This document shows positions 2,900-24,709 of a DNA stretch of 31,497 nt, piece after piece. The stretch is taken from the IMG/VR virus record IMGVR_UViG_3300023184_000366, positions 1 to 31,497 of that record. One strand, given 5' to 3'. The DNA is from a virus. Under the pieces are notes generated by a model. That model did no database searches. It was given only the letters and a program-made list of their open reading frames with translations, and was not told where the DNA came from. Numbering within the stretch: the stretch's first letter is position 1; every line of letters begins with the position of its first letter. The position numbers were made by a program, and so were the translations under genes.

Positions 2900-2905
2900 T
2901 ATAAT
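2900..2905 (+). promoter_or_regulatory. Candidate -10 box TATAAT at the head of the accessory island
   Basis: TGTATAAT lies 10 bases after the adhesin stop and overlaps an ATG at 2904. Transcription starting about 7 bases downstream would place AGGAG (near 2940-2944) and the ATG at 2952 in a normal leader. The -35 is weak (TTTAGA at 2878, 16-base spacer). Confidence 0.4.
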
Positions 2906-2951
2906 GTCTTATCGTCGCAATGATAACCCCACCAATTCAGGAGAACTTTTT

Positions 2952-3188
2952 ATGGCTTATGGCTTTAGTACTTTAGATGCAAATGACCTAGTTGAAGCAA
3001 AGGCACGAGTCAAATATCAACTTGAGCGAGACCTTTATGATGCAGCACTTAAACTACAACAAGACCCAGCAACCTTTGACTACGAGGATCTTGTTGTTCC
3101 CGAAAACGCTGAAACGGACCCGTTGTACGCCTATAAACTAAGTCTTAAGACCATTTGGAATCAGATTAAGTGGCTGGAAACTATTTAA
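2952..3188 (+). CDS. Small helical protein of unknown function
   Basis: I chose the ATG at 2952 (78 residues) because AGGAGA lies 8 bases upstream. The in-frame ATG at 2904 would overlap a TATAAT box and has no clear ribosome-binding site, but a 94-residue product cannot be excluded. The sequence is mostly amphipathic helix (LVEAKARVKYQLERDLYDAA near residues 13-32, and a C-terminal LKTIWNQIKWLETI). There is no cysteine cluster, signal peptide or membrane segment. It is the first gene of the oxygenase/halogenase island and may be a small virion or regulatory protein. I do not recognise a family. Confidence 0.6.
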   Translation: MAYGFSTLDANDLVEAKARVKYQLERDLYDAALKLQQDPATFDYEDLVVPENAETDPLYAYKLSLKTIWNQIKWLETI

Positions 3189-3238: not shown

Positions 3239-3844
3239 ATGAAACCAATTGATTTGGGCAACTGTGTATACCTGTATGAGAATGCTTTTGCCCCAGGCAA
3301 CTTTGTAAACTTATTAGAAGAAGAGTGCAAGAACGATTGGGGATACCTATCATGGTTTAGGACACTTGTAGGTTCTGGCGATAACTTAAGGGCAGACAAC
3401 TACCGTTCTTCTTTGGGATGTGAACTGGCTCCACTGAATGTTCCCGAATCAGAAGTCTCAGTTGACCGTTTACTTCCTGTTCGTAGTGCTTGGGATAAGA
3501 TTAGGACTGACACAGATAAGGCTGTGTGGCATTACAGGAACGAACATGCACTTAACTTAGCCAAAGATGAGGGTTACCGTGTTCTTAAGTACGGACGGGG
3601 TGCGGAGTACCGTGGTCACGTTGACCATCACCCATCCAATCAGCGTGTTCTTAGTGTTATTGGGTATCTTAATGATGGCTACGCAGGTGGAGAATTAGTG
3701 TTTCCACTGTTAGATATAACAGTTAAACCGAAGGCTGGGGCAGTTTTGCTATTTCCATCTAATTTTCCTTATTACCACTATGCAAACTCTGTGGGAGATA
3801 TTTCAGACGAAATTAAGTATGCATTCGTTTCATGGTTTGTTTGA
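3239..3844 (+). CDS. 2-oxoglutarate/Fe(II) oxygenase, prolyl 4-hydroxylase-like
   Basis: This 201-residue protein has AGGAG 8 bases before its ATG. Its C-terminal half shows the double-stranded beta-helix core of prolyl 4-hydroxylase-like oxygenases. GHVDHH contains the iron ligands H127 and D129, GGELVFP is at 150-156, GAVLLFPS is at 167-174, the distal histidine is H180 (YYHYA), and K193 in EIKYAFVSWF is the probable 2-oxoglutarate anchor. The family hydroxylates proline or other side chains using O2, 2-oxoglutarate and Fe(II). Such genes are known in aquatic phages, often near tail-fibre genes. The substrate is not visible in the sequence; the collagen-like adhesin just upstream is the attractive candidate. 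The halogenase ATG follows its TGA by one base, implying coupled expression. Confidence 0.85.
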   Translation: MKPIDLGNCVYLYENAFAPGNFVNLLEEECKNDWGYLSWFRTLVGSGDNLRADNYRSSLGCELAPLNVPESEVSVDRLLPVRSAWDKIRTDTDKAVWHYRNEHALNLAKDEGYRVLKYGRGAEYRGHVDHHPSNQRVLSVIGYLNDGYAGGELVFPLLDITVKPKAGAVLLFPSNFPYYHYANSVGDISDEIKYAFVSWFV

Positions 3845-3845
3845 T

Positions 3846-5315
3846 ATGCAAAAGCACGTTTGTATTGTTGGATCAGGAACTGCTGGGTTAATTACAGCCA
3901 TAATGCTTCGTGGAATGTTTCCACTGTATAAAATAACGGTAGTATCTTCCTCTTCTATCGGAATCATTGGGGTTGGTGAAGGTTCCACCGAACATTGGAG
4001 ACAGGGATTTCAAACCCCATACAACATCAATGTTAATGAATTAGTTTCTGAATGTGCTGCTACACACAAGTATGGTATTAGGTTTGAGAATTGGACAAAC
4101 CATACGCCAGACTATTTTCATAGCGTAAGTCTCCCAGGAATGGGTCCTAATGACTTTGCAGCAAATTATGCGTTTTGTCTTGAAAACAATAGATTGCTAA
4201 CAAGTTCAATGATATCCCACCTATACAACAACAACATAGTAAAAGTCACGGGCGCAAATCAACACGATTCTGTAAACCAGTTTCACTTTGACACTAATAA
4301 ATTAAATAATTATCTTACAGTTGTTGCTAAAACAAGGGATGTTACATTTATTGATGACGAAGTTACAAATGTAAAACAAGACACAGTTTCTGGTTTTATA
4401 ACTGAGGTTGGTTTAACCAAGAATGGCTCAATCCTTGCTGATTTCTTTGTAGATGCATCAGGCTTTAGAAGGGCCTTAATGTCTCAAATTGTAAAAGAAG
4501 ATGATTTTGTAAGTTACCGAAAGTACCTTCCAACAGATTCTGCGGCGGTGTTCCAAACAGAGTCAGATCCTTCTGGTGAAATCCGACCATACACCCGTGC
4601 ACGAGCCTTGTCTAGTGGATGGGTGTTTGAAATACCTACGCAGGAAAGACGTGGAAACGGGTACATTTATGCATCTGACTTTTGCTCCGATGATCAAGCG
4701 GTCAAAGAAGTATCGGATCTTATTGGAAAAGAACTTACCCCAAGAATTATTAAATTTAAGTCTGGTTATTATAAGCAGGGCTTAAAACACAATTGTGTGG
4801 CAGTAGGACTGGCGGGTTCGTTTGTAGAACCTTTAGAAGCAACCTCTATCTCTACAACCATTCAACAAGCGAGAATGATTGGGCAATTACTTCCTACCTT
4901 TAATGAAGGAAGTAAGGCTCAAACAAAAGATTATAATAAGAAGTTTGCAGAACTAATGGACAACATTTTAGTTATGATTTCGTTGCATTACGTTTCTGAT
5001 AGAACCGATTCCGAAATGTGGAAAGCACAACAAAACGCTGAACTTCCTGAGACATTACAGAATCTTTTGGAATTGTGGAAAGAAAGAGTACCTTCTATAT
5101 TTGATTTTGCAGACACTGGGTATGGTCTATTTCATTCTGCACACTTGTGGCATGTTGCTCAAGGACAGGGAGTAATTAATCCCGAAGCGGCAACAACACA
5201 ACTCAATGCTTTTGGCTCAAGGGATTGGGCAGCAGGGGCACTGGCTAACTTTAAAAGTGAACAAGTAAAAAATGGATTGGTGGATCATGGGTCTATTTTC
5301 AAACAAAAAAAGTAA
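3846..5315 (+). CDS. Flavin-dependent halogenase (tryptophan halogenase family)
   Basis: This 489-residue protein starts at the ATG one base after the upstream stop. The frame is open 22 codons further up, but that part only overlaps the oxygenase gene. The FAD-binding GxGxxG is at VGSGTAG (9-14). GVGEGSTE follows at 42-49 and HKYGIRFENW at 74-83, where K75 aligns with the catalytic lysine of PrnA-type halogenases. DASGFRR is at 203-209, GWVFEIP at 258-264 (the family's WxWxIP motif in a variant form) and GSFVEPLEATS at 324-334. Family enzymes use FADH2, O2 and halide to make hypohalous acid that halogenates an aromatic substrate; a reductase supplies FADH2. No flavin reductase gene is seen here, so the host would provide it. 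Related halogenases occur in cyanophages. The substrate is unknown and could be a protein or a small molecule. Confidence 0.85.
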   Translation: MQKHVCIVGSGTAGLITAIMLRGMFPLYKITVVSSSSIGIIGVGEGSTEHWRQGFQTPYNINVNELVSECAATHKYGIRFENWTNHTPDYFHSVSLPGMGPNDFAANYAFCLENNRLLTSSMISHLYNNNIVKVTGANQHDSVNQFHFDTNKLNNYLTVVAKTRDVTFIDDEVTNVKQDTVSGFITEVGLTKNGSILADFFVDASGFRRALMSQIVKEDDFVSYRKYLPTDSAAVFQTESDPSGEIRPYTRARALSSGWVFEIPTQERRGNGYIYASDFCSDDQAVKEVSDLIGKELTPRIIKFKSGYYKQGLKHNCVAVGLAGSFVEPLEATSISTTIQQARMIGQLLPTFNEGSKAQTKDYNKKFAELMDNILVMISLHYVSDRTDSEMWKAQQNAELPETLQNLLELWKERVPSIFDFADTGYGLFHSAHLWHVAQGQGVINPEAATTQLNAFGSRDWAAGALANFKSEQVKNGLVDHGSIFKQKK

Positions 5316-6144
5316 CGAAAATGTTACGATTAAGGCCGACATCTGGGAAGGCTTACCAATACCAAAGAAGCATGAATTGTTGGCTATTCCTTTATCCAAC
5401 ACCTTGTGGCACCCAAAAGTAGCCCTTTACAAAAATAACAAGAAAACACCTGATTGGTTTAAAGAAGTTGCTACTGGGGAATTGGGATTGCGAAGATGTT
5501 ATGGTCTTGCAGATTATATGCGTACTGGGTATACCATTCCGTTGTGGGCACAATTAGACGTTCGGGAACCAATTTCAAAGTTAAATGCAAGTTGGGACGC
5601 TCGTTTTAATACTCCATCTTATTTGGTTGAACCACTAGACAATCAGGCGTATGAACAACTCATAAGCAAAGCAAACGTAGATCGTAATCAATTTGGGTAT
5701 GACCAAGCAGGGGAATGTCCCGTAGCAGCAATGAAGCAAAGGAAAAAGTCAGATTACCTAAAATTGCAAAACCCGTGGTTGATTAAGACAGCACCAGGTT
5801 ATTCGTCCTTATTTATAGCGCCGCAATGGGAACCCAACAGTAATTATTCTGTAATGGCTGGCGTTGTTCATACAGACTATTACCATCACTGCAACATCGT
5901 TTTGAATATTACGACAAATCAGCCCTTCTCTATTGACGAAGGAACACCAATGTTGCATGTTATTCCCTTTAAAAGAGAAAGCGCTTTAATCAAGAGTGAA
6001 TTGCTAAAGGGTGATGAATCCACCCACAAACTCCTTGACAAACTTGGGTTTGACAATATTGAACAAGGATACAACTGGAAAGGCGCTTACAAAAGAGAGC
6101 AATCCAGACACGATAAAGAATTGCGGGATATTGACAATGGATAG
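5287..6144 (+). CDS. Unknown protein of the oxygenase island, paralogue A
   Basis: The chosen ATG at 5287 (285 residues) has GGTGG just upstream. An ATG five codons earlier (5272) is possible. Both starts lie inside the end of the halogenase gene, so translation is coupled. The second half holds LFIAPQWEPNS, VVHTDYYHHCNIVLNI, and a glycine-centred turn followed by strands (EGTPMLHVIPFKRES). The same order of motifs occurs in the gene at 8248 (ASMTAPYFE, NIEFNLW, GDALCYIQFHTDRP). This suggests two diverged members of one family, probably beta-sandwich proteins, possibly related to DUF6065-type proteins. The His/Tyr/Asp-rich VHTDYYHHC could bind metal. The function is not known; co-transcription with a halogenase and oxygenases suggests a role in the same modification. 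Confidence 0.65.
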   Translation: MGLFSNKKSNENVTIKADIWEGLPIPKKHELLAIPLSNTLWHPKVALYKNNKKTPDWFKEVATGELGLRRCYGLADYMRTGYTIPLWAQLDVREPISKLNASWDARFNTPSYLVEPLDNQAYEQLISKANVDRNQFGYDQAGECPVAAMKQRKKSDYLKLQNPWLIKTAPGYSSLFIAPQWEPNSNYSVMAGVVHTDYYHHCNIVLNITTNQPFSIDEGTPMLHVIPFKRESALIKSELLKGDESTHKLLDKLGFDNIEQGYNWKGAYKREQSRHDKELRDIDNG

Positions 6145-6553
6145 GGTTATATATTGTCCTACGGAGGATCAATTAACTGAGGCTGAGGCACTGGCTAAAG
6201 AATGGCTATTGCCGATTCAAATTGGTGATTCTCCAAGAACTGAGAAGATTGATTTTAATAGAAAAGAAGTAATCGTTGTGACTGTTCCCGTTGATGTTGG
6301 GTTTGTTCCCGCATACTTTTCTGTTGAGATGTCTGTTCCATTTACTATTATGTATCTCAATGACTTTATGGATTGCTCATCTGTGTCTTTTCAGGTGTTT
6401 AGCAAAGACAACAGCAGCGTTGTCAAATCAGTCCGCCACGACAAGCACCGAATTGGTATTCCGTTAAGCATTGAAGTTTCTGGAGATTTTGTCCTAAAGT
6501 GCTTTGATGGTGATAATGTTTTGGATGAAATGACCATAAGCGTAAAACAATAG
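6137..6553 (+). CDS. Unknown beta-rich protein
   Basis: The frame is open from 6011, but the ATG at 6137 (138 residues, MDRVIYCPTEDQ) avoids a long overlap and overlaps the preceding gene by only 8 bases. After a short N-terminal segment mentioning a CPTEDQ turn, the protein consists of strand-like stretches (EVIVVTVPVDVGFVPAYFSVEM, FTIMYLNDF, DFVLKCFDGDNV) that read like an immunoglobulin-type or other beta-sandwich fold. No catalytic motif is visible. Context places it in the oxygenase island, between a paralogue-A gene and a 2OG oxygenase. It could be a structural or carrier protein. No family is recognised. Confidence 0.6.
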   Translation: MDRVIYCPTEDQLTEAEALAKEWLLPIQIGDSPRTEKIDFNRKEVIVVTVPVDVGFVPAYFSVEMSVPFTIMYLNDFMDCSSVSFQVFSKDNSSVVKSVRHDKHRIGIPLSIEVSGDFVLKCFDGDNVLDEMTISVKQ

Positions 6554-6561
6554 GAGAGTAG

Positions 6562-7239
6562 ATGCTTAACTTCGTGGGCGGTAAGTCTCACCACATTGCT
6601 GTCATAGACGACATTATTCCAAAAGAAGTATGCGTGGGAATAATTAATGAATGCAAGTACCACTACGACAAGTTATTTTATCCAGGACCAACCATTGGTG
6701 GTGTTCAGTCACATATTAAATCGTCTATGGATTTTGACTTTGGTTTTCGTGACTTAGCCGAAAAAGGTATTCCTGCTGAACCTTTTATGAATTATGAGGA
6801 GAAGATAACACATGCGTTGTATGGAGCACTTGCTTTGTATGTTGAGCAAATCCATGAGTTAAACGCTTTATGCCCACAACTGCTAGATACTGGGTATCGT
6901 GTACAGAATTACAAGCAAAGAACTAATTATTACAGACGACATTATGATGGCGCTCCGTGGAATAGTGGGTTACTCAATCAACGAGTTTTGGGAGTTGTGA
7001 TGTATCTCAACACAATTGAAGTTGGCGGTGGAACAGGGTTTCCAGAACATGATCTTGTGATACCTGCCAAGCAAGGTTCTATTGCGATATTCCCTGCTAG
7101 TTGGACACACCCACATATGGGCATGGTGCCAATATCAGAAGAAAAATGGATTATTAGCACATTTATGTACGCTAACCGAGATGAAGATATTCCTGCCACG
7201 CCCCCACAAACCATAGATCCAACTATCATCAAATTTTAA
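6562..7239 (+). CDS. 2-oxoglutarate/Fe(II) oxygenase, prolyl 4-hydroxylase-like (second)
   Basis: This 225-residue protein is preceded by AGGAG about 6 bases before the ATG. The core motifs are RRHYDG with iron ligands H127 and D129, VMYLNTIEVGGGTGFP (146-161) matching the family's YLN...GGxTxFP, GSIAIFPASW (172-181), a distal histidine at H183 or H185 (THPHMG), and K195 in EEKWIIST as the probable 2-oxoglutarate anchor. It is only distantly similar to the oxygenase at 3239, so it was probably acquired independently or diverged long ago. The likely reaction is proline (or related side-chain) hydroxylation. The active-site set is complete, so the enzyme is probably functional. Its substrate cannot be read from sequence. 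Confidence 0.85.
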   Translation: MLNFVGGKSHHIAVIDDIIPKEVCVGIINECKYHYDKLFYPGPTIGGVQSHIKSSMDFDFGFRDLAEKGIPAEPFMNYEEKITHALYGALALYVEQIHELNALCPQLLDTGYRVQNYKQRTNYYRRHYDGAPWNSGLLNQRVLGVVMYLNTIEVGGGTGFPEHDLVIPAKQGSIAIFPASWTHPHMGMVPISEEKWIISTFMYANRDEDIPATPPQTIDPTIIKF

Positions 7240-7242
7240 AAC

Positions 7243-7701
7243 ATGATTAACACCCGAACTTGTGGAACGTGCATTAAGTGCTGTGATGGTAACTTGGATG
7301 TTGTTATCAATGAACATGTTGTTCAAAAAGGGTCACCATGCCCGCATGTGTCCGTACACACTGGGTGTACGATATATCAAGACCGACCACCCATTTGTAG
7401 GGAGTTTGAATGCGCTTGGAAAAAGGACTTGCACATTCCAGAGTGGTTAAAACCAGAACACTCTAATGTAATCATTGTATACAAAGTGTTTGAAGGAATG
7501 GATTACACGCAAGCAATTGAGACAGACAGCGTTGTGTTAAGTGCCCAAGCCCTTAATTGGTTAATAACCGATGCAATTAAATGGAAATCCAATTTGGTAT
7601 ATCAAATAGGATCAAGAGGCTTTTATTGCATGGGATCTTCTGCATTTTGTAAAGCGTGGATAAAGGAACATAACGGGGTAGGAATTGCTTATGCAGAGTA
7701 A
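7243..7701 (+). CDS. YkgJ-like cysteine-cluster (zinc/iron-chelating) protein
   Basis: This 152-residue protein starts three bases after the oxygenase stop. Eight cysteines lie in the first 57 residues: CGTCIKCC (7-14), PCPH (32-35), GCTIY (41-45) and RPPICREFEC (48-57). The pattern CxxCxxCC...C...GC.IY..RP..CR.F.C matches the YkgJ family of predicted zinc- or iron-chelating proteins. The remaining 90 residues are ordinary and hold three further scattered cysteines near 129-136. YkgJ-type proteins have no well-proven activity. In this setting, between two Fe(II)-dependent oxygenase-type genes, a role in metal handling or in binding the same substrate is reasonable but inferred. The next gene begins inside its 3' end. 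Confidence 0.75.
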   Translation: MINTRTCGTCIKCCDGNLDVVINEHVVQKGSPCPHVSVHTGCTIYQDRPPICREFECAWKKDLHIPEWLKPEHSNVIIVYKVFEGMDYTQAIETDSVVLSAQALNWLITDAIKWKSNLVYQIGSRGFYCMGSSAFCKAWIKEHNGVGIAYAE

Positions 7702-8248
7702 ACTTGTCAGCCAATTCTTGTCACCCATAGAGTGCACAGAGATAAGAGAATCAATTGAATCAGAAGCATGGGGTGGCGATGACTGGGGTAGGAAATCATG
7801 CGATCTACCTAACAACTTAAAAATAGAAGAAGAAATGAAAAGGCAGTATGGGGAAGACTTAGTGTTCACTTATGCAAAATGGGTCAGGTATTCCACGCTG
7901 TACGGATCTCCAAAGGTTCCCCCTCACGTAGACATGCGCCCTTGTACCTATACTTTTGATATTCAATTACGCTCTACAGTTAACTGGCCCTTAGTTGTAA
8001 ATGGTGTTGAGTATTTGATGGGAAATGGCGATGCCGTGTTATATGGTGGAGAAGATCAACTTCACTGGAGACCGCCGTACCCCACAAAAGACCCGATGAA
8101 GTTTGTTGAAGTTGCTTTTTACCACTATGTAAAACCAAACCATTGGTCACTCACTGGTAGCATGACCCCAAGCGATAGCGATACATTGGCTAAACAAAAA
8201 ACAAAGAAGTTGCTAGATGAATACGAGAAAAAGATTAAGGGCGCTTAA
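7691..8248 (+). CDS. Cupin/double-stranded beta-helix protein, likely 2OG oxygenase-like
   Basis: The ATG at 7691 (185 residues) has GGGGTAGG upstream and is preferred over a TTG two codons earlier. PPHVDMRP supplies an HxD pair (H79, D81). It is followed by strand-like TYTFDIQLRS, WPLVVNG, a glycine turn (GNGDAVLYGGED), H125 (QLHWRPPYP) and VEVAFYHYV. This order (HxD, about 45 residues, His) is that of 2OG-Fe(II) oxygenases of the phage/eukaryote type with a compact core. The usual arginine or lysine co-substrate anchor is not obvious; K137 or H145 might serve. It may be an active third oxygenase or a metal-binding homologue. It overlaps both neighbours and ends in a lysine-rich helical tail. 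Confidence 0.7.
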   Translation: MQSKLVSQFLSPIECTEIRESIESEAWGGDDWGRKSCDLPNNLKIEEEMKRQYGEDLVFTYAKWVRYSTLYGSPKVPPHVDMRPCTYTFDIQLRSTVNWPLVVNGVEYLMGNGDAVLYGGEDQLHWRPPYPTKDPMKFVEVAFYHYVKPNHWSLTGSMTPSDSDTLAKQKTKKLLDEYEKKIKGA

Positions 8249-8985
8249 TGAAACAAATACTAGAACCACTTGACATTTATTGGGCACCTTATTGGATGAA
8301 GACAGATGTAACAAAGGACCTTAGCCATCTATTCCCTTCTCCAAAAACATTGTATGAAGAATGCCTAGAAAAGCAAATTGGTAACCCAGACCGATCTAAC
8401 TTTATAAATTGCCCAGCCGTGTCCGAAAAGATGAAACACACATATGTGTTTAGAACCATACAGGAAACTAAGGTTTCGTTAAATGGTTCAGATGTTGCTT
8501 ACGAACAAAACTTAAAGTGCCCAGCATACATAGAGCACCTACATGGGCCGACTATGGAAAACAATGAGCATCTTAACTATCACCATTGCTTATTGTTCTT
8601 CTCTTCAGAAAGCGTTATAGCAAGCATGACCGCTCCATACTTTGAGTTGCCAACCAGCCACAAGTACGGAATGATTGTTCCTGGAGAATATGATATTGGT
8701 CAATGGTACCGACCAATGAACATAGAGTTTAACCTGTGGAGTGGAGTCACTTCACTACATGTCAATGCTGGAGATGCCTTATGCTACATCCAGTTTCACA
8801 CAGACCGACCTGTGAGGCTGCATCGGTATCACGTAACCGAAGAGTTAAGTACCCTTGCCATGTCCTTAGTGCACATTAGTCCTTTACGATTCCTTGCAAG
8901 ATTGACAGAAAAATACAAGATGTTCAATAATGCCCAACTTAGAACCCGTGTTTTAAGGGAAATAAGAAAGAATATAGAGGAGTAG
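8248..8985 (+). CDS. Unknown protein of the oxygenase island, paralogue B
   Basis: This 245-residue protein has its ATG overlapping the previous stop (TAATGA). Motifs in the second half (ASMTAPYFELP, GMIVPGEYDIGQWYRP, NIEFNLW, NAGDALCYIQFHTDRPVRLHRY) correspond in order to those of the gene at 5287, suggesting an old duplication. GDALCYIQFHTDRPV resembles a beta-sandwich or cupin strand pair. The last 50 residues are helical and basic (ARLTEKYKMFNNAQLRTRV). The family may relate to DUF6065-type proteins, but I could not confirm this without a profile search. Placement directly after the third oxygenase-like gene suggests a shared pathway. Possible roles are enzyme partner, glycan-binding or modification; none is shown. 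Confidence 0.65.
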   Translation: MKQILEPLDIYWAPYWMKTDVTKDLSHLFPSPKTLYEECLEKQIGNPDRSNFINCPAVSEKMKHTYVFRTIQETKVSLNGSDVAYEQNLKCPAYIEHLHGPTMENNEHLNYHHCLLFFSSESVIASMTAPYFELPTSHKYGMIVPGEYDIGQWYRPMNIEFNLWSGVTSLHVNAGDALCYIQFHTDRPVRLHRYHVTEELSTLAMSLVHISPLRFLARLTEKYKMFNNAQLRTRVLREIRKNIEE

Positions 8986-8987
8986 TA

Positions 8988-9272
8988 ATGTTGAAACCAT
9001 CAGAAATCATAGAAGTAACACGCCGTTGGGGGCATAAAGACTATTGGACCAAAGTAAACATTATTGAGGCTTGGGCTTTTATGACCAAAATTTCAATCAT
9101 TGTTCCAGGTCTTATCTTTGATAAACAATGGTGGTGGATGTACCTTTTTGCCCTTGCATCAAGCATCGCCTTGGTTATCACGTCAACAATCAAGACCATG
9201 CCGACAATCATTTGGTTCAACTTTTGCTGGATGGTTCTAGCAACCACGGCTATCCTCAAGCACTTTTTCTGA
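8988..9272 (+). CDS. Small membrane protein with about three helices
   Basis: This 94-residue protein is preceded by GAGGAG 6 bases before the ATG. After a polar N-terminus there are three hydrophobic segments at about 28-44, 49-67 and 72-91, rich in Trp at the interfaces (DKQWWWMY, IIWFNFCW). There is no cleavable signal peptide pattern. It is the last gene of the island and lies just upstream of the endolysin gene, so it could be a holin or antiholin. Equally it could be an envelope protein tied to the modification island. The number and spacing of helices fit a class I holin, but composition alone does not decide. Confidence 0.55.
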   Translation: MLKPSEIIEVTRRWGHKDYWTKVNIIEAWAFMTKISIIVPGLIFDKQWWWMYLFALASSIALVITSTIKTMPTIIWFNFCWMVLATTAILKHFF

Positions 9273-9281
9273 GATTGATGG

Positions 9282-9287
9282 TAAAAT
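9282..9287 (+). promoter_or_regulatory. Candidate leaderless promoter of the endolysin gene
   Basis: TAAAAT, preceded by TGG (extended -10 type), ends 7 bases before the ATG at 9295. Transcription would then start at or next to the A of ATG. No good -35 is seen at 17 bases, and no Shine-Dalgarno lies between. Confidence 0.5.
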
Positions 9288-9294
9288 AGGGGTC

Positions 9295-9870
9295 ATGACA
9301 AAGATGCCTTGGCCTGTAGTTCCAATCAAATTCTGTGAACACCTAGAAGGTAAGAAGCCTTCCCAGATCACTCCTGCAATGCTTCGCAAGTTGTCGGTGG
9401 GTGGTCAGATGCACCACTGCGCCGCCCGTGCCTTTGAAGCAATGAAAGTTGCCGCACATGCTGATGGCGTTGTCTTGGCTCCGACTTCCAGCGGGGACAC
9501 ATTCCGCAGTATTGAGACCCAGACCAAAGGATTCCTTACTCGCTACCAGAAGGAAGTAATTCCAGACGCCACCACCCGTACATGGAATGGTGTGAAGTGG
9601 TACTTGAAGAAGGGTAACGCTCCTCTAGCGGCTCCTAACGATGACGCTAAGACCTGCTCACGACACATGCTTGGTATTGCCATTGACATTGCCAACACTG
9701 GCAATAAGAAAATCATGGACTGGCTCTTGGCTAACGAACAGAAGTTTGGTTTTAGCCATGAAGTAGTGGACATGCCAGGTGCTGAGAGTTGGCACATCCG
9801 CTTTACCGAAGGTAAGGCAATGCCTCAAGCAGTCCTTGACTACGAGGCAACGCTTCCTCCACAAGCGTAG
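9295..9870 (+). CDS. Endolysin, VanY/M15-type D-Ala-D-Ala carboxypeptidase-like
   Basis: This 191-residue protein shows the M15 metallopeptidase signature. SRHMLGIAID at 122-131 gives zinc ligands H124 and D131 (SxHxxGxAxD), and ESWHIRF at 164-170 gives the third ligand H167. The N-terminal 70 residues resemble the usual lead-in with TSSGDTFRS. The family cleaves peptidoglycan cross-link peptides (D-Ala-D-Ala carboxypeptidase or L-Ala-D-Glu endopeptidase). In a phage late region without vancomycin-resistance genes, a lysis enzyme is the natural reading. There is no cell-wall-binding domain and no signal peptide, so a holin should be needed for release. Two holin candidates lie downstream (14978, 17394) and one just upstream. 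It appears to have its own promoter. Confidence 0.85.
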   Translation: MTKMPWPVVPIKFCEHLEGKKPSQITPAMLRKLSVGGQMHHCAARAFEAMKVAAHADGVVLAPTSSGDTFRSIETQTKGFLTRYQKEVIPDATTRTWNGVKWYLKKGNAPLAAPNDDAKTCSRHMLGIAIDIANTGNKKIMDWLLANEQKFGFSHEVVDMPGAESWHIRFTEGKAMPQAVLDYEATLPPQA

Positions 9871-15585: not shown

Positions 15586-16736
15586 GTGAACTGGCAGACG
15601 CATTAAGTAATCCACCACAAGACAAGAGCAAACTTCTTGGCAAGTTGGTGGAAATGTTGGAACGTAAAAACATTGACATCAACGAAATTGGTGATGTTAG
15701 AAAAGTAAAGTTGTATCAGTCACTTACAAAAGACGCTGATGGTGAAGCACAAATTCATGATCTTGCAGCAATTCAGTTCAGCCCTAAATGGGAGACTGGT
15801 CCTGAATGGCCTGTTGTAAAGCAAGGTCCTGCTGTCAAGATGCCACCAGTAACAGCCAAAGCAAAGAAGCCAACGACATTCAAAACATGTGTAGTTGTTC
15901 CCGATATTCAGATTGGGTATTACCGTGGTCGTGATGGTCAGTTAGAGCCAACTCATGATGAGAAAGCAATCCAGGTTTGTTTAAAGATGATTCAAGATAC
16001 ACAACCTGAAGTCATTGCATGTGTGGGAGACAACTTGGACTTTCCTGAAATGGGCAAGTACCTGACATATCCTGCGTACGCACAAACTACACAAGCATCT
16101 ATTGATCGTGCAACCTTCTTCTGTGCACAGATGAGAGCAATGGCTCCTAACGCAAAGATCATTTGGCTTGCAGGAAACCATGAGGAGCGTATGCCTAAGT
16201 ACATCCTTGTTAACGCAGGTGTTGCTTATGGTCTGCGTAAGGGAAACATTCCTGAGTCATGGCCTGTGTTAAGTGTCCCTTACCTTTGTCGCATGGATGA
16301 ATTTGGCGTGGAGTACCGTCCAGGTTATCCAGCAGCAGATTTCTGGGTTAATGAAAAACTCCGTATTATCCACGGTGATCGTGTGAAGTCGTCAGGCTCC
16401 ACAGCACACGTTTACCTCAACCAAGAAAAGACGAGCGTCATCTATGGTCACATACACCGAATTGAAACAGCATTTAAAACTCGTGAAGACTTTGATGGAC
16501 CAAGAACCATCATGGCGGCTTCTCCTGGTTGCCTTGCTCGGATTGACGGCGCTATCCCTAGCACTAGGGGTGGGGTGGATCTAGACGGACGTCCGTTAAC
16601 TCGTTACGAGAACTGGCAACAGGGTCTTGGAGTCGTTCAGTACGAAGACTCAGGAGCACATCGCTTCTCCTACGATGTCATTCCAATTTATGACGGTTGG
16701 GCAATGTACAACGGCAAGGAATATCAGGCGGACTAA
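15582..16736 (+). CDS. Calcineurin-like metallophosphoesterase
   Basis: The ATG at 15582 (384 residues) follows GGAGG at 15571-15575; a longer frame from 15555 is rejected. The N-terminal 90 residues are helical and Pro/Lys-rich, possibly a DNA- or protein-binding lead. The catalytic domain shows the metallophosphoesterase motifs: PDIQIG (D108), GDNLD (149-153), GNHEER (198-203), IHGD (263-266) and GHIHR (289-293), which together bind two metal ions. The family hydrolyses phosphodiesters or phosphomonoesters, including DNA ends and nucleotides. In phages such enzymes are found near packaging or replication genes, with usually unknown substrate. It is preceded by a helix-turn-helix-like gene and followed with a one-base overlap by the Ntn hydrolase gene. 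Confidence 0.85.
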   Translation: MSELADALSNPPQDKSKLLGKLVEMLERKNIDINEIGDVRKVKLYQSLTKDADGEAQIHDLAAIQFSPKWETGPEWPVVKQGPAVKMPPVTAKAKKPTTFKTCVVVPDIQIGYYRGRDGQLEPTHDEKAIQVCLKMIQDTQPEVIACVGDNLDFPEMGKYLTYPAYAQTTQASIDRATFFCAQMRAMAPNAKIIWLAGNHEERMPKYILVNAGVAYGLRKGNIPESWPVLSVPYLCRMDEFGVEYRPGYPAADFWVNEKLRIIHGDRVKSSGSTAHVYLNQEKTSVIYGHIHRIETAFKTREDFDGPRTIMAASPGCLARIDGAIPSTRGGVDLDGRPLTRYENWQQGLGVVQYEDSGAHRFSYDVIPIYDGWAMYNGKEYQAD

Positions 16737-17365
16737 TGACCACGATTATTGGCGTACAAGGTGATGGTTTTGCTGTCGTGTGCGTTGATTCTCGTATTTC
16801 TTCTATGGACTCTACTGGGTTATCCCAGATTGGTACCTTGAGAGAAGGGTCTAGCAAAGTTGCAGTAAACGGCAAATACTTGTTAGGAGCGGCTGGGGAC
16901 GTCCGTGCAATCAATATCTTGCACCATGTTTTTCAACCACCTGCACCCCCTCCAAATATCAAAGGCAAGAAACTGGATCAGTTCTTTACTGCCAAGTTCA
17001 TTCCGTCTTTACGAGAATGCTTTGATTCCCAAGGCTATTCCATTCCTGATCGTGAAGACAAAGAGCATATGGCAGAACAAGGGTCTACCCTTTTAATTGC
17101 TGTCAACGGAGTTATCTACATCGTGGATGGGGATTACTCGTGGGCGTCAGAAGCCAATGGTCTCTACTCAATCGGTTCAGGATCTGCTTATGCTTTGGGG
17201 GCTATGCAGGTCTTAACACATAATAAGAAGCAAACTGTTCAGCAGGCTAAAACCCACGCTATTAAGGCTTTAACTGTCGCTGCTCGCTTTGATCCTCATA
17301 CGGGCGCCCCATACCACACGTATATTCAAGAGCAAGAAAACACCCGTACCCGTAAAACGGTATAA
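16736..17365 (+). CDS. Proteasome beta/HslV-like N-terminal-nucleophile hydrolase
   Basis: The ATG at 16736 overlaps the preceding TAA; an upstream in-frame ATG at 16697 is rejected because it would bury the nucleophile. The 209-residue chain begins MTTIIGV. Removal of Met would leave Thr1-Thr2 as in HslV. Counting from that Thr, the conserved Asp-17 falls exactly on VDSR, and a lysine in SSKV (mature 40, seven beyond the usual 33) can be the general base. LLGAAGDVRA and YSIGSGSAYALGAM correspond to the family's G-x-x-G and GSG(S)xYA motifs. It should be an Ntn-fold peptidase. A lone subunit with no ATPase partner nearby, in the head-gene region just ahead of the portal, could mature the prohead or act on host proteins. 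It may also assemble into rings on its own. Confidence 0.85.
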   Translation: MTTIIGVQGDGFAVVCVDSRISSMDSTGLSQIGTLREGSSKVAVNGKYLLGAAGDVRAINILHHVFQPPAPPPNIKGKKLDQFFTAKFIPSLRECFDSQGYSIPDREDKEHMAEQGSTLLIAVNGVIYIVDGDYSWASEANGLYSIGSGSAYALGAMQVLTHNKKQTVQQAKTHAIKALTVAARFDPHTGAPYHTYIQEQENTRTRKTV

Positions 17366-23605: not shown

Positions 23606-24709
23606 ATGATTCCAGGAATCGTAGAATCCTCAAGGTGGGTCGCTTCTTTTAGCGATACTTTTAATCGTGCTGATGCTGCAAACATCAATACGAATAACCT
23701 TGAATGGCAAGAGATTATTGGTGACTGGCAAATCTCTTCAAATACGGCATACTCCCCTACGGCTGCTTCCTCTTATCCCCTAGCAGCCATTAACACCTTT
23801 AAAGAAAACACTTCTGTTATTTCATATAATGGCAGTGCAGGTGCTGGCTTTGGTGTTGCTTTTTGGGTAGTTGATTCAAACAATTGGTGGGCAGTAGTTA
23901 GTAACACCACTACAAGTACTTCAACTGGCACAGTTTATTCTTGCCCTAATGGTGGCACACTTTCAGGAACAACCTGTCTTAACACTTGCTACAGCACTTG
24001 CTATGACACTTGCTATGAACAGTGCTGCTCAGGTGGTTCGTGCCCAGGTGGCTTGTCAGGATCATGCGGTGGTGGCGGTTACGCTTTTGGGTGTTATCAA
24101 CCAGGAGGCTGTGGTTGCCCGCCAGGGACCGCAGGAGACGTGTCCACCTGTACATGTTATAGCGATTACCAAGGTGGACCAAGTACCCTTTGCATTGGTA
24201 GCACGTGTGGTTATGGATGTTGGTACAACTGGCCTTTTGCTACGTCTTATGCATTTGCAGGAGGCTGTTATGGTTCCGCCACTAGTGGTGTTGTAGCCGC
24301 AGGTTGGGTGGCGGGAACAGTCACATCCACAAGTAATTGTAACCCTTACTCTTGTAACCCTTACTCTTGTAACCCATACGCATGTAACTCCGCTGCAACT
24401 GCAACAAACAACACCATTACAACGTATGCGCATACTCTAACGTTACTTAGAAAATTAGCAGGAACTGTTTCAGTAGTAGAAACGCAGACGCATGGAGCAG
24501 ACCAAACTACTCCTATCTACTTCACTTCCCTGTCAGTATCCACTGTAGGTAACGTCATTAGTTATTCAGGTTTGCGCAATGGTTCTACAAATGCTTATAC
24601 TGCTACAGCCGTATCTCCTACTAAGGGAACAAAACACGGTATCATAATGGCACCAGTAACGGCGGGTACGCAAGCAAATAGAGTAGACCGATTTGACTAC
24701 AACGGATAG
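23606..24709 (+). CDS. LamG-like protein with a cysteine-rich insertion
   Basis: This 367-residue protein starts four bases after the fibre-like gene. Residues 14-98 (FSDTFNRADAANI, EWQEIIGDWQIS, GAGFGVAFWVVDSNNWWAV) match the start of a concanavalin/LamG-type beta-sandwich. The family's second half appears at about 270-365 (HTLTLLRKLAG, FTSLSVSTVGNVISYSG, GIIMAPVTAG). Between them lies an insertion, residues 113-260, with 22 cysteines and none elsewhere. They are spaced every four residues at 124-140 (CLNTCYSTCYDTCYEQC), then in CGGGG, GCGC and CTCY clusters, and every five in a CNPYS repeat at 245-260. It may bind sugars or form a disulphide- or metal-stabilised surface loop. A virion surface role is inferred from position. 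Confidence 0.65.
   Translation: MIPGIVESSRWVASFSDTFNRADAANINTNNLEWQEIIGDWQISSNTAYSPTAASSYPLAAINTFKENTSVISYNGSAGAGFGVAFWVVDSNNWWAVVSNTTTSTSTGTVYSCPNGGTLSGTTCLNTCYSTCYDTCYEQCCSGGSCPGGLSGSCGGGGYAFGCYQPGGCGCPPGTAGDVSTCTCYSDYQGGPSTLCIGSTCGYGCWYNWPFATSYAFAGGCYGSATSGVVAAGWVAGTVTSTSNCNPYSCNPYSCNPYACNSAATATNNTITTYAHTLTLLRKLAGTVSVVETQTHGADQTTPIYFTSLSVSTVGNVISYSGLRNGSTNAYTATAVSPTKGTKHGIIMAPVTAGTQANRVDRFDYNG
24338..24391 (+). repeat. Three tandem 15-bp repeats in the cysteine-rich loop
   Basis: TGTAACCCTTACTCT occurs twice in tandem (24338-24352 and 24353-24367), followed by a diverged copy TGTAACCCATACGCA and then TGTAACTCC. They encode the C-N-P-Y-S units of the LamG-like protein and suggest expansion by slippage. 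Confidence 0.8.

Follow-up and report, generated by a model that had tools for sequence, protein, structure and literature searches.

Gene content of the island

The stretch of DNA analysed here (the window) is a virus fragment of 31.5 kb (31,497 nt; IMG/VR record IMGVR_UViG_3300023184_000366, positions 1 to 31,497), in which no end repeats were found. It encodes a myovirus structural region comprising terminase, portal, capsid, sheath and baseplate genes. Streptomyces phage BRock is a relative of the source, an uncultured myovirus, and the BRock group provides the closest match of the terminase (46% identity) and of the capsid protein (59% identity), which suggests an actinobacterial host. 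The present work deals with a gene island of this fragment, in which a Gly-rich tail adhesin (1631-2890) is followed by a 2-oxoglutarate (2OG) oxygenase, a flavin halogenase, a dUTPase-fold protein and further oxygenases. All the genes between 1631 and 9272 lie on the + strand, with intergenic gaps of -29 to +50 nt. This agrees with the operon-like run described in an original prediction, which had, however, overlooked a small gene at about 6131-6553 (F6). The same prediction proposed the phage's adhesin as the target of these enzymes. Gene linkage favors this proposal, but its collagen and tyrosine details turn out not to be general.

Both oxygenases announced as prolyl 4-hydroxylase-like (3239-3844 and 6562-7239) match PF13640 above cut-off (E = 2.5e-12 and 2.1e-8, respectively), and prolyl 4-hydroxylases are the nearest relatives of solved structure (3itq, 5hv0; E about 1e-6). 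The HxD motif and the distal His of this 2OG-Fe(II) family are 98-99% conserved across 154 relatives. A third protein (7685-8248; phrog_2954/3531, PHROG label 'ferrochelatase') was also correctly recognized as oxygenase-like. It is of 2OG type, and H81, D83, H127 and R129 are invariant among its 29 relatives. Between the last two oxygenases stands the predicted cysteine-cluster protein (7243-7701), an accessory CxxCxxCC-like protein matching phrog_9155 (E = 1e-30) and, below the gathering score, PF03692 (E = 0.0013).

The flavin halogenase is encoded by 3846-5315 and matches the Trp_halogenase profile with E = 4e-98. Its start had to be corrected to 3846, the ATG at 3780 falling within the oxygenase gene. 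In an alignment of 82 relatives, the GxGxxG motif, the catalytic Lys and the Glu of FxEPLE are invariant or almost so. The WxWxIP motif has its WxW form in 66 of these relatives and reads WxF in the window and 15 others. With its fingerprint flavin adenine dinucleotide (FAD), Lys and Glu motifs, the protein is predicted to be a flavin-dependent halogenase.

The next gene encodes F2 (5287-6144; phrog_7084). An early structural model was weak (predicted local distance difference test, pLDDT, 66.5) and was superseded by one built from a 74-sequence alignment (pLDDT 90). The 50 best PDB matches listed for this model are all dUTPases, alone or in complexes (best E = 2e-4), and 13 of the 74 members match the Pfam dUTPase family (PF00692). 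F2 is thus predicted to have the dUTPase fold. In the alignments, almost all members have His or Asn where the catalytic Asp of motif 3 usually stands, so that an active dUTPase is unlikely; binding or escort would be a more suitable role. F2 is essentially restricted to viruses, the three matches in 84,980 species being all phage-like contigs in metagenome-assembled genomes. F2 had been paired, as two related unknowns, with F34 (8248-8985; phrog_17480), an accessory protein of no assigned function found in close relatives only. A clear relationship is not supported (phrog_7084 E = 0.08; hhalign E = 0.13), and the two proteins are at best weakly related.

The adhesin and its linkage with the enzymes

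The adhesin is identified by tail-fibre PHROG matches, its own and those of a relative from locus L012. Its N-terminal domain is common to its upstream neighbor F3 and to the halovirus adhesins of phrog_13336. Short G-x-y runs, of which the longest has 10 triplets, surround a His-rich block (residues ~242-376; 2354-2758). These runs are interrupted, and the collagen hallmark of a long uninterrupted Gly-X-Y repeat is not found in the window adhesin; the label 'collagen-like' is therefore loose. In the His cluster of the window, 18 His occur within 60 residues, a density equalled in none of 2000 shuffles. A His-rich block was found in 101 of 102 distinct complete adhesins, in the second half of the protein and with a median length of 204 aa. 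Against the background of the other proteins annotated at these loci, the blocks are seven-fold richer in His (19.6% vs. 2.7%) and are also enriched in Pro (8.8% vs. 4.8%) and Asn (8.8% vs. 5.5%). The median of the maximum number of His per 60 residues is 17.5 in the adhesins and 1 in the sister protein F3, and the His content of the halovirus adhesins is 0.9-1.7%. N-P is the most over-represented of the frequent dipeptides (2.8-fold).

The residues singled out by the original prediction can be considered in this light. P142, P179, P232, P238, P383 and P389 do occupy the places given, each in a local G-x-P-G, and over all adhesins (3634 triplets) Pro is much more frequent at the Y-position than at the X-position (354 vs. 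64). However, 16 of the 102 adhesins have no Y-position Pro at all and 35 have at most one, and this residue was rejected as a general, defining target. Aromatic residues had been proposed as sites of halogenation. An enrichment of the tip in Tyr or Trp was likewise not found: Tyr accounts for 3.5% of the block against a background of 4.3%, and Trp for 0.8% against 1.8%. Tyr is found in every block except one, HHW in 16 and WW in 8 of the 101 blocks. The conserved feature of the adhesin is the His-rich block, not the collagen Y-position proline; this block is hypervariable, rich in His, Pro, Asn and Gly, and flanked by Gly-rich stretches.

Related loci (numbered with L) were retrieved with the halogenase and then, independently, with F3, F2, the adhesin N-terminus and a divergent adhesin set. 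Each scan comprised the best 80 loci, and more distant relatives are therefore under-sampled. F3, the adhesin N-terminus and F2, used as separate queries, repeatedly returned the same gene set. A halogenase is present in the retrieved locus for 105 of 111 distinct complete adhesins, and within the window clade the enzymes were not found to occur regularly without the adhesin. Five of the six adhesin contigs lacking a halogenase end within 3 kb downstream. The adhesin of L261 (IMGVR_UViG_3300027839_000036) is the sole member of the family with neither a halogenase in 35 kb nor a His block. This control is not decisive, since the contig begins 542 bp upstream and relatives carry the enzymes upstream. 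Over 104 distinct loci, the distance between adhesin and halogenase has a median of 1.3 kb and a maximum of 3.9 kb, the two genes are on the same strand in 103 cases, and 92 loci have F2 at most 100 nt from the halogenase, as a rule directly behind it. The order of the genes varies: the halogenase is upstream in 7 loci, L116 is rearranged, and the order of F2 and halogenase is changed in L068, L155 and L159. The set is nevertheless kept, which favors functional linkage over simple co-inheritance. The halogenases of these loci form 34 clusters at 70% identity and 16 at 60%. A cytochrome P450 gene stands shortly behind the halogenase-F2 pair in L012, L014, L020, L026, L105 and others. L158 is the only F2 locus with enough flank and no adhesin. 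BRock-group phages were not among the halogenase matches, and the adhesin N-terminus of the L012 relative matched no isolated phage, the BRock group included.

A comparable layout is found in a second halogenase clade. VirX1 (6qgm) is the product of a gene of cyanophage Syn10 (L273, 7986-9578). At this locus, Gly-rich adhesins and a 164-aa protein precede a halogenase, VirX1 and an F2 homologue, in this order, and JmjC_2, DUF6445 and 2OG genes are among those that follow. JmjC_2 (PF08007) is the family of hydroxylases that modify Arg and His of ribosomal proteins. The same arrangement occurs in S-RIM44, Sf-CH3 and P-TIM40, and likewise in S-SZBM1, but with F2 not detected in the latter. In the gp38-like Gly-rich adhesins of these loci, His clustering is modest, with 4-10 His per 60 residues. 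The tree places the VirX1 clade (98/93) apart from that of the window (100/100). The nearest neighbors of the window clade, P-SSM2 and S-H38 among them, have no directly adjoining adhesin; in S-H38, a Gly-rich protein is encoded about 4.5 kb upstream. In S-SRM01 the halogenase adjoins an annotated adhesin, and F2 was not found. The other phage halogenases are found at different genomic sites. In S-SSM6a (L285), the halogenase is clustered with nucleotidyltransferase and RfaE-type genes, with no adjoining adhesin. In the S-SZBM1 virion proteomics, neighbors 51-54 are listed and the gp38-like adhesins 48/49 were not found in the text, which is uninformative either way (PMC9146016).

Other genes complete the picture. 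In almost all relatives, the upstream neighbor of the adhesin is F3 (895-1629, + strand), a tail protein that carries the phrog_13336 domain without a His block. The small protein behind the adhesin (2904-3188) has a conserved position and is possibly a chaperone or a tail part. F6, of no assigned function, is present in most relatives. The run ends (8988-9870, + strand) with a small protein of apparently membrane-like character (8988-9272) and a VanY-type peptidase (9295-9870; PF02557, E = 4e-11), probably lysis genes outside the cassette. Elsewhere in the window, 16697-17365, located between phosphoesterase and structural genes, matches a proteasome subunit (PF00227, E = 3e-7) and possibly encodes a phage protease. 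Neither Pfam nor PHROG gave a match for the product of 23606-24709, whose central stretch is cysteine-rich, with CxxxC repeated many times; Cys-rich tails resembling this stretch occur in family F14 of related loci.

A proposed tailoring cassette for the tail adhesin

In a large group of uncultured phages, adhesin, halogenase, F2 and oxygenases are near-constant neighbors, which points to a chemical modification of the host-binding tip by the phage itself. It can be proposed, with a probability of roughly 60%, that the island is a tailoring cassette acting on the adhesin. In this proposal, the enzymes would be made late in infection together with the tail and adhesin, and the adhesin would be modified before or during assembly, in its exposed His-rich block. 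The oxygenases may hydroxylate Pro, Asn or His of the block, and the halogenase may act on His or on the few Tyr and Trp. F2 would be a non-catalytic partner. dUTPases are typically trimeric, and so are many tail adhesins. VirX1 has been reported to be a trimer too (PMC8407142). A trimeric escort role for F2 would be attractive. The phage could benefit through the affinity for its receptor, through a stiffer adhesin, or through tolerance of metal or salt. A more specific version is put forward tentatively, at slightly less than even odds: halogenase, 2OG oxygenases and dUTPase-fold escort would install halogenated and hydroxylated residues, mainly His, in the hypervariable tip, this would hold for at least two halogenase clades, and it would be the native role of VirX1-type enzymes.

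Several observations weigh against the tailoring proposal. Many of the loci are related, so that part of the linkage reflects common descent. P450, FkbM methyltransferase and GT4 genes at some loci would also fit the tailoring of a small molecule or glycan, and in L158 (4935-10645) three consecutive cytochrome P450 genes stand near the F2 homologue, with no halogenase or adhesin. F2 homologues are found beside ribonucleotide reductase in haloviruses and S-RIM4. Ribonucleotide reductase genes near F2 or F34 homologues are seen in HF1 (L192), HCTV-8 (L193), S-RIM4 (L194) and CRP-6 (L195), and in the haloviruses F2 is positioned between the adhesin operon and the reductase. The predicted co-occurrence of adhesin and enzymes holds for the window clade, but no adhesin adjoins the halogenases of P-SSM2, S-PM2, Syn1, S-MbCM6, S-B64 and HTVC008M, although S-B64 and S-MbCM6 are members of the VirX1 clade. 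Finally, the block is far richer in His than in Tyr or Trp and, to our knowledge, halogenation of protein His by the flavin halogenase family is not known. Bromohistidine and halogenated tyrosines were, however, found in sponge skeletons (PMC8659048), showing that halogenated His exists in nature.

Could the enzymes instead build or decorate a small molecule or glycan (a halogenated amino-acid or sugar product, a capsule, a receptor), the vicinity of the adhesin being a convenient site for insertion of late genes? Flavin halogenases are classically natural-product enzymes, and the tailoring genes just mentioned would suit such a pathway. A halogenated secondary metabolite or a capsule decoration was predicted for the S-SSM6a cluster (Iyer et al., 2021, PMC7824862), and reviews treat phage halogenases as auxiliary metabolic genes. 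We nevertheless consider this explanation unlikely. No scaffold-forming enzyme (nonribosomal peptide synthetase, polyketide synthase, or precursor with maturase of a ribosomally synthesized and post-translationally modified peptide, RiPP) was recognized among the island proteins scanned. Moreover, glycosyltransferase, FkbM and P450 genes are optional neighbors whereas the adhesin is the fixed partner, and it carries a matching compositional feature, the His block. The link also outlasts changes in gene order, and it is seen again in a second, distinct halogenase clade, where the adhesin is of another type.

This recurrence, together with the shuffled order of an unchanged gene set and the 16 halogenase clusters at 60% identity, also makes it very unlikely that a conserved tail-to-lysis segment was simply inherited en bloc while the enzymes act elsewhere, on host proteins, defence or nucleotides. 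The relatedness of many loci and the dUTPase fold of F2, with its vicinity to ribonucleotide reductase in other viruses, would fit such a scenario; the His or Asn at the catalytic Asp position of F2 does not. Equally improbable is a collagen-type modification, in which the prolyl 4-hydroxylase-like enzymes would hydroxylate the Y-position Pro of Gly-X-Y and the halogenase would target Tyr. The closest solved relatives of the oxygenases, the bias of Pro toward the Y-position and the near-constant presence of Tyr in the blocks are consistent with it. However, the oxygenases are kept at 15 of the 16 loci whose adhesin has no Y-position Pro, and Tyr and Trp are both under background in the block.

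Comparison with known systems

The annotation of phage 'tryptophan halogenases' in cyanophages is of long standing, and the genes were read as auxiliary metabolic genes, as antibiotic-related genes conferring protection, or as secondary-metabolite genes (PMC2984593, PMC10452541, PMC7824862). Cyanophage 2OG oxygenases were linked to DNA repair or to 2-oxoglutarate levels (PMC3037559). In the open-access literature, no proposal was found for the modification of a tail fibre or adhesin by a halogenase or hydroxylase. The sources consulted give no native substrate for VirX1, an enzyme able to iodinate many small aromatics in vitro (PMC8407142). For enzymes such as VirX1, the linkage described here names one candidate protein substrate. 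Should the tailoring proposal hold, oxidation and halogenation after translation would give phages a receptor-binding tip whose chemistry exceeds that of the 20 amino acids. Recombinant, unmodified adhesins might then not bind, with consequences for adhesin studies, and protein-directed halogenases would be on offer as tools.

Phage-encoded glycosylation of virion proteins is known, and RiPP tailoring by flavin halogenases exists, for instance that of lanthipeptides by MibH. As in the proposed cassette, MibH acts on a ribosomal peptide. Unlike in RiPP tailoring, the candidate substrate is a structural adhesin, and no leader peptide or recognition element was seen, without a dedicated test. The window oxygenases share the HxD...H motif and the fold family of prolyl 4-hydroxylases (PF13640), but Gly-X-Pro is not conserved in their proposed substrate. 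Similarly, F2 shares with the dUTPase superfamily (PF00692) the fold and a motif-3-like strand pair, and differs from it by the His or Asn replacing the catalytic Asp and by extra N- and C-terminal parts.

On the adhesin side, the Gly-rich segments and the hypervariable loops at the receptor-binding end recall the S16/T4-type gp38 polyglycine adhesin (PMC6630733). The two adhesins differ in their unrelated N-terminal domains and in the long His-rich block carried by the window protein. The adhesins of haloviruses HF1 and HCTV-8 (phrog_13336) have a homologous N-terminal domain and a Gly-rich body (24-30% identity), with an F2 homologue nearby; they differ by lacking the His block, and no halogenase was found genome-wide in these two viruses. 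VirX1 of cyanophage Syn10 belongs to a separate halogenase clade and neighbors T4 gp38-like (Gly_rich_2) adhesins, but it is a member of the same enzyme family as the window halogenase and stands in the same adhesin-halogenase-F2-2OG/JmjC layout.

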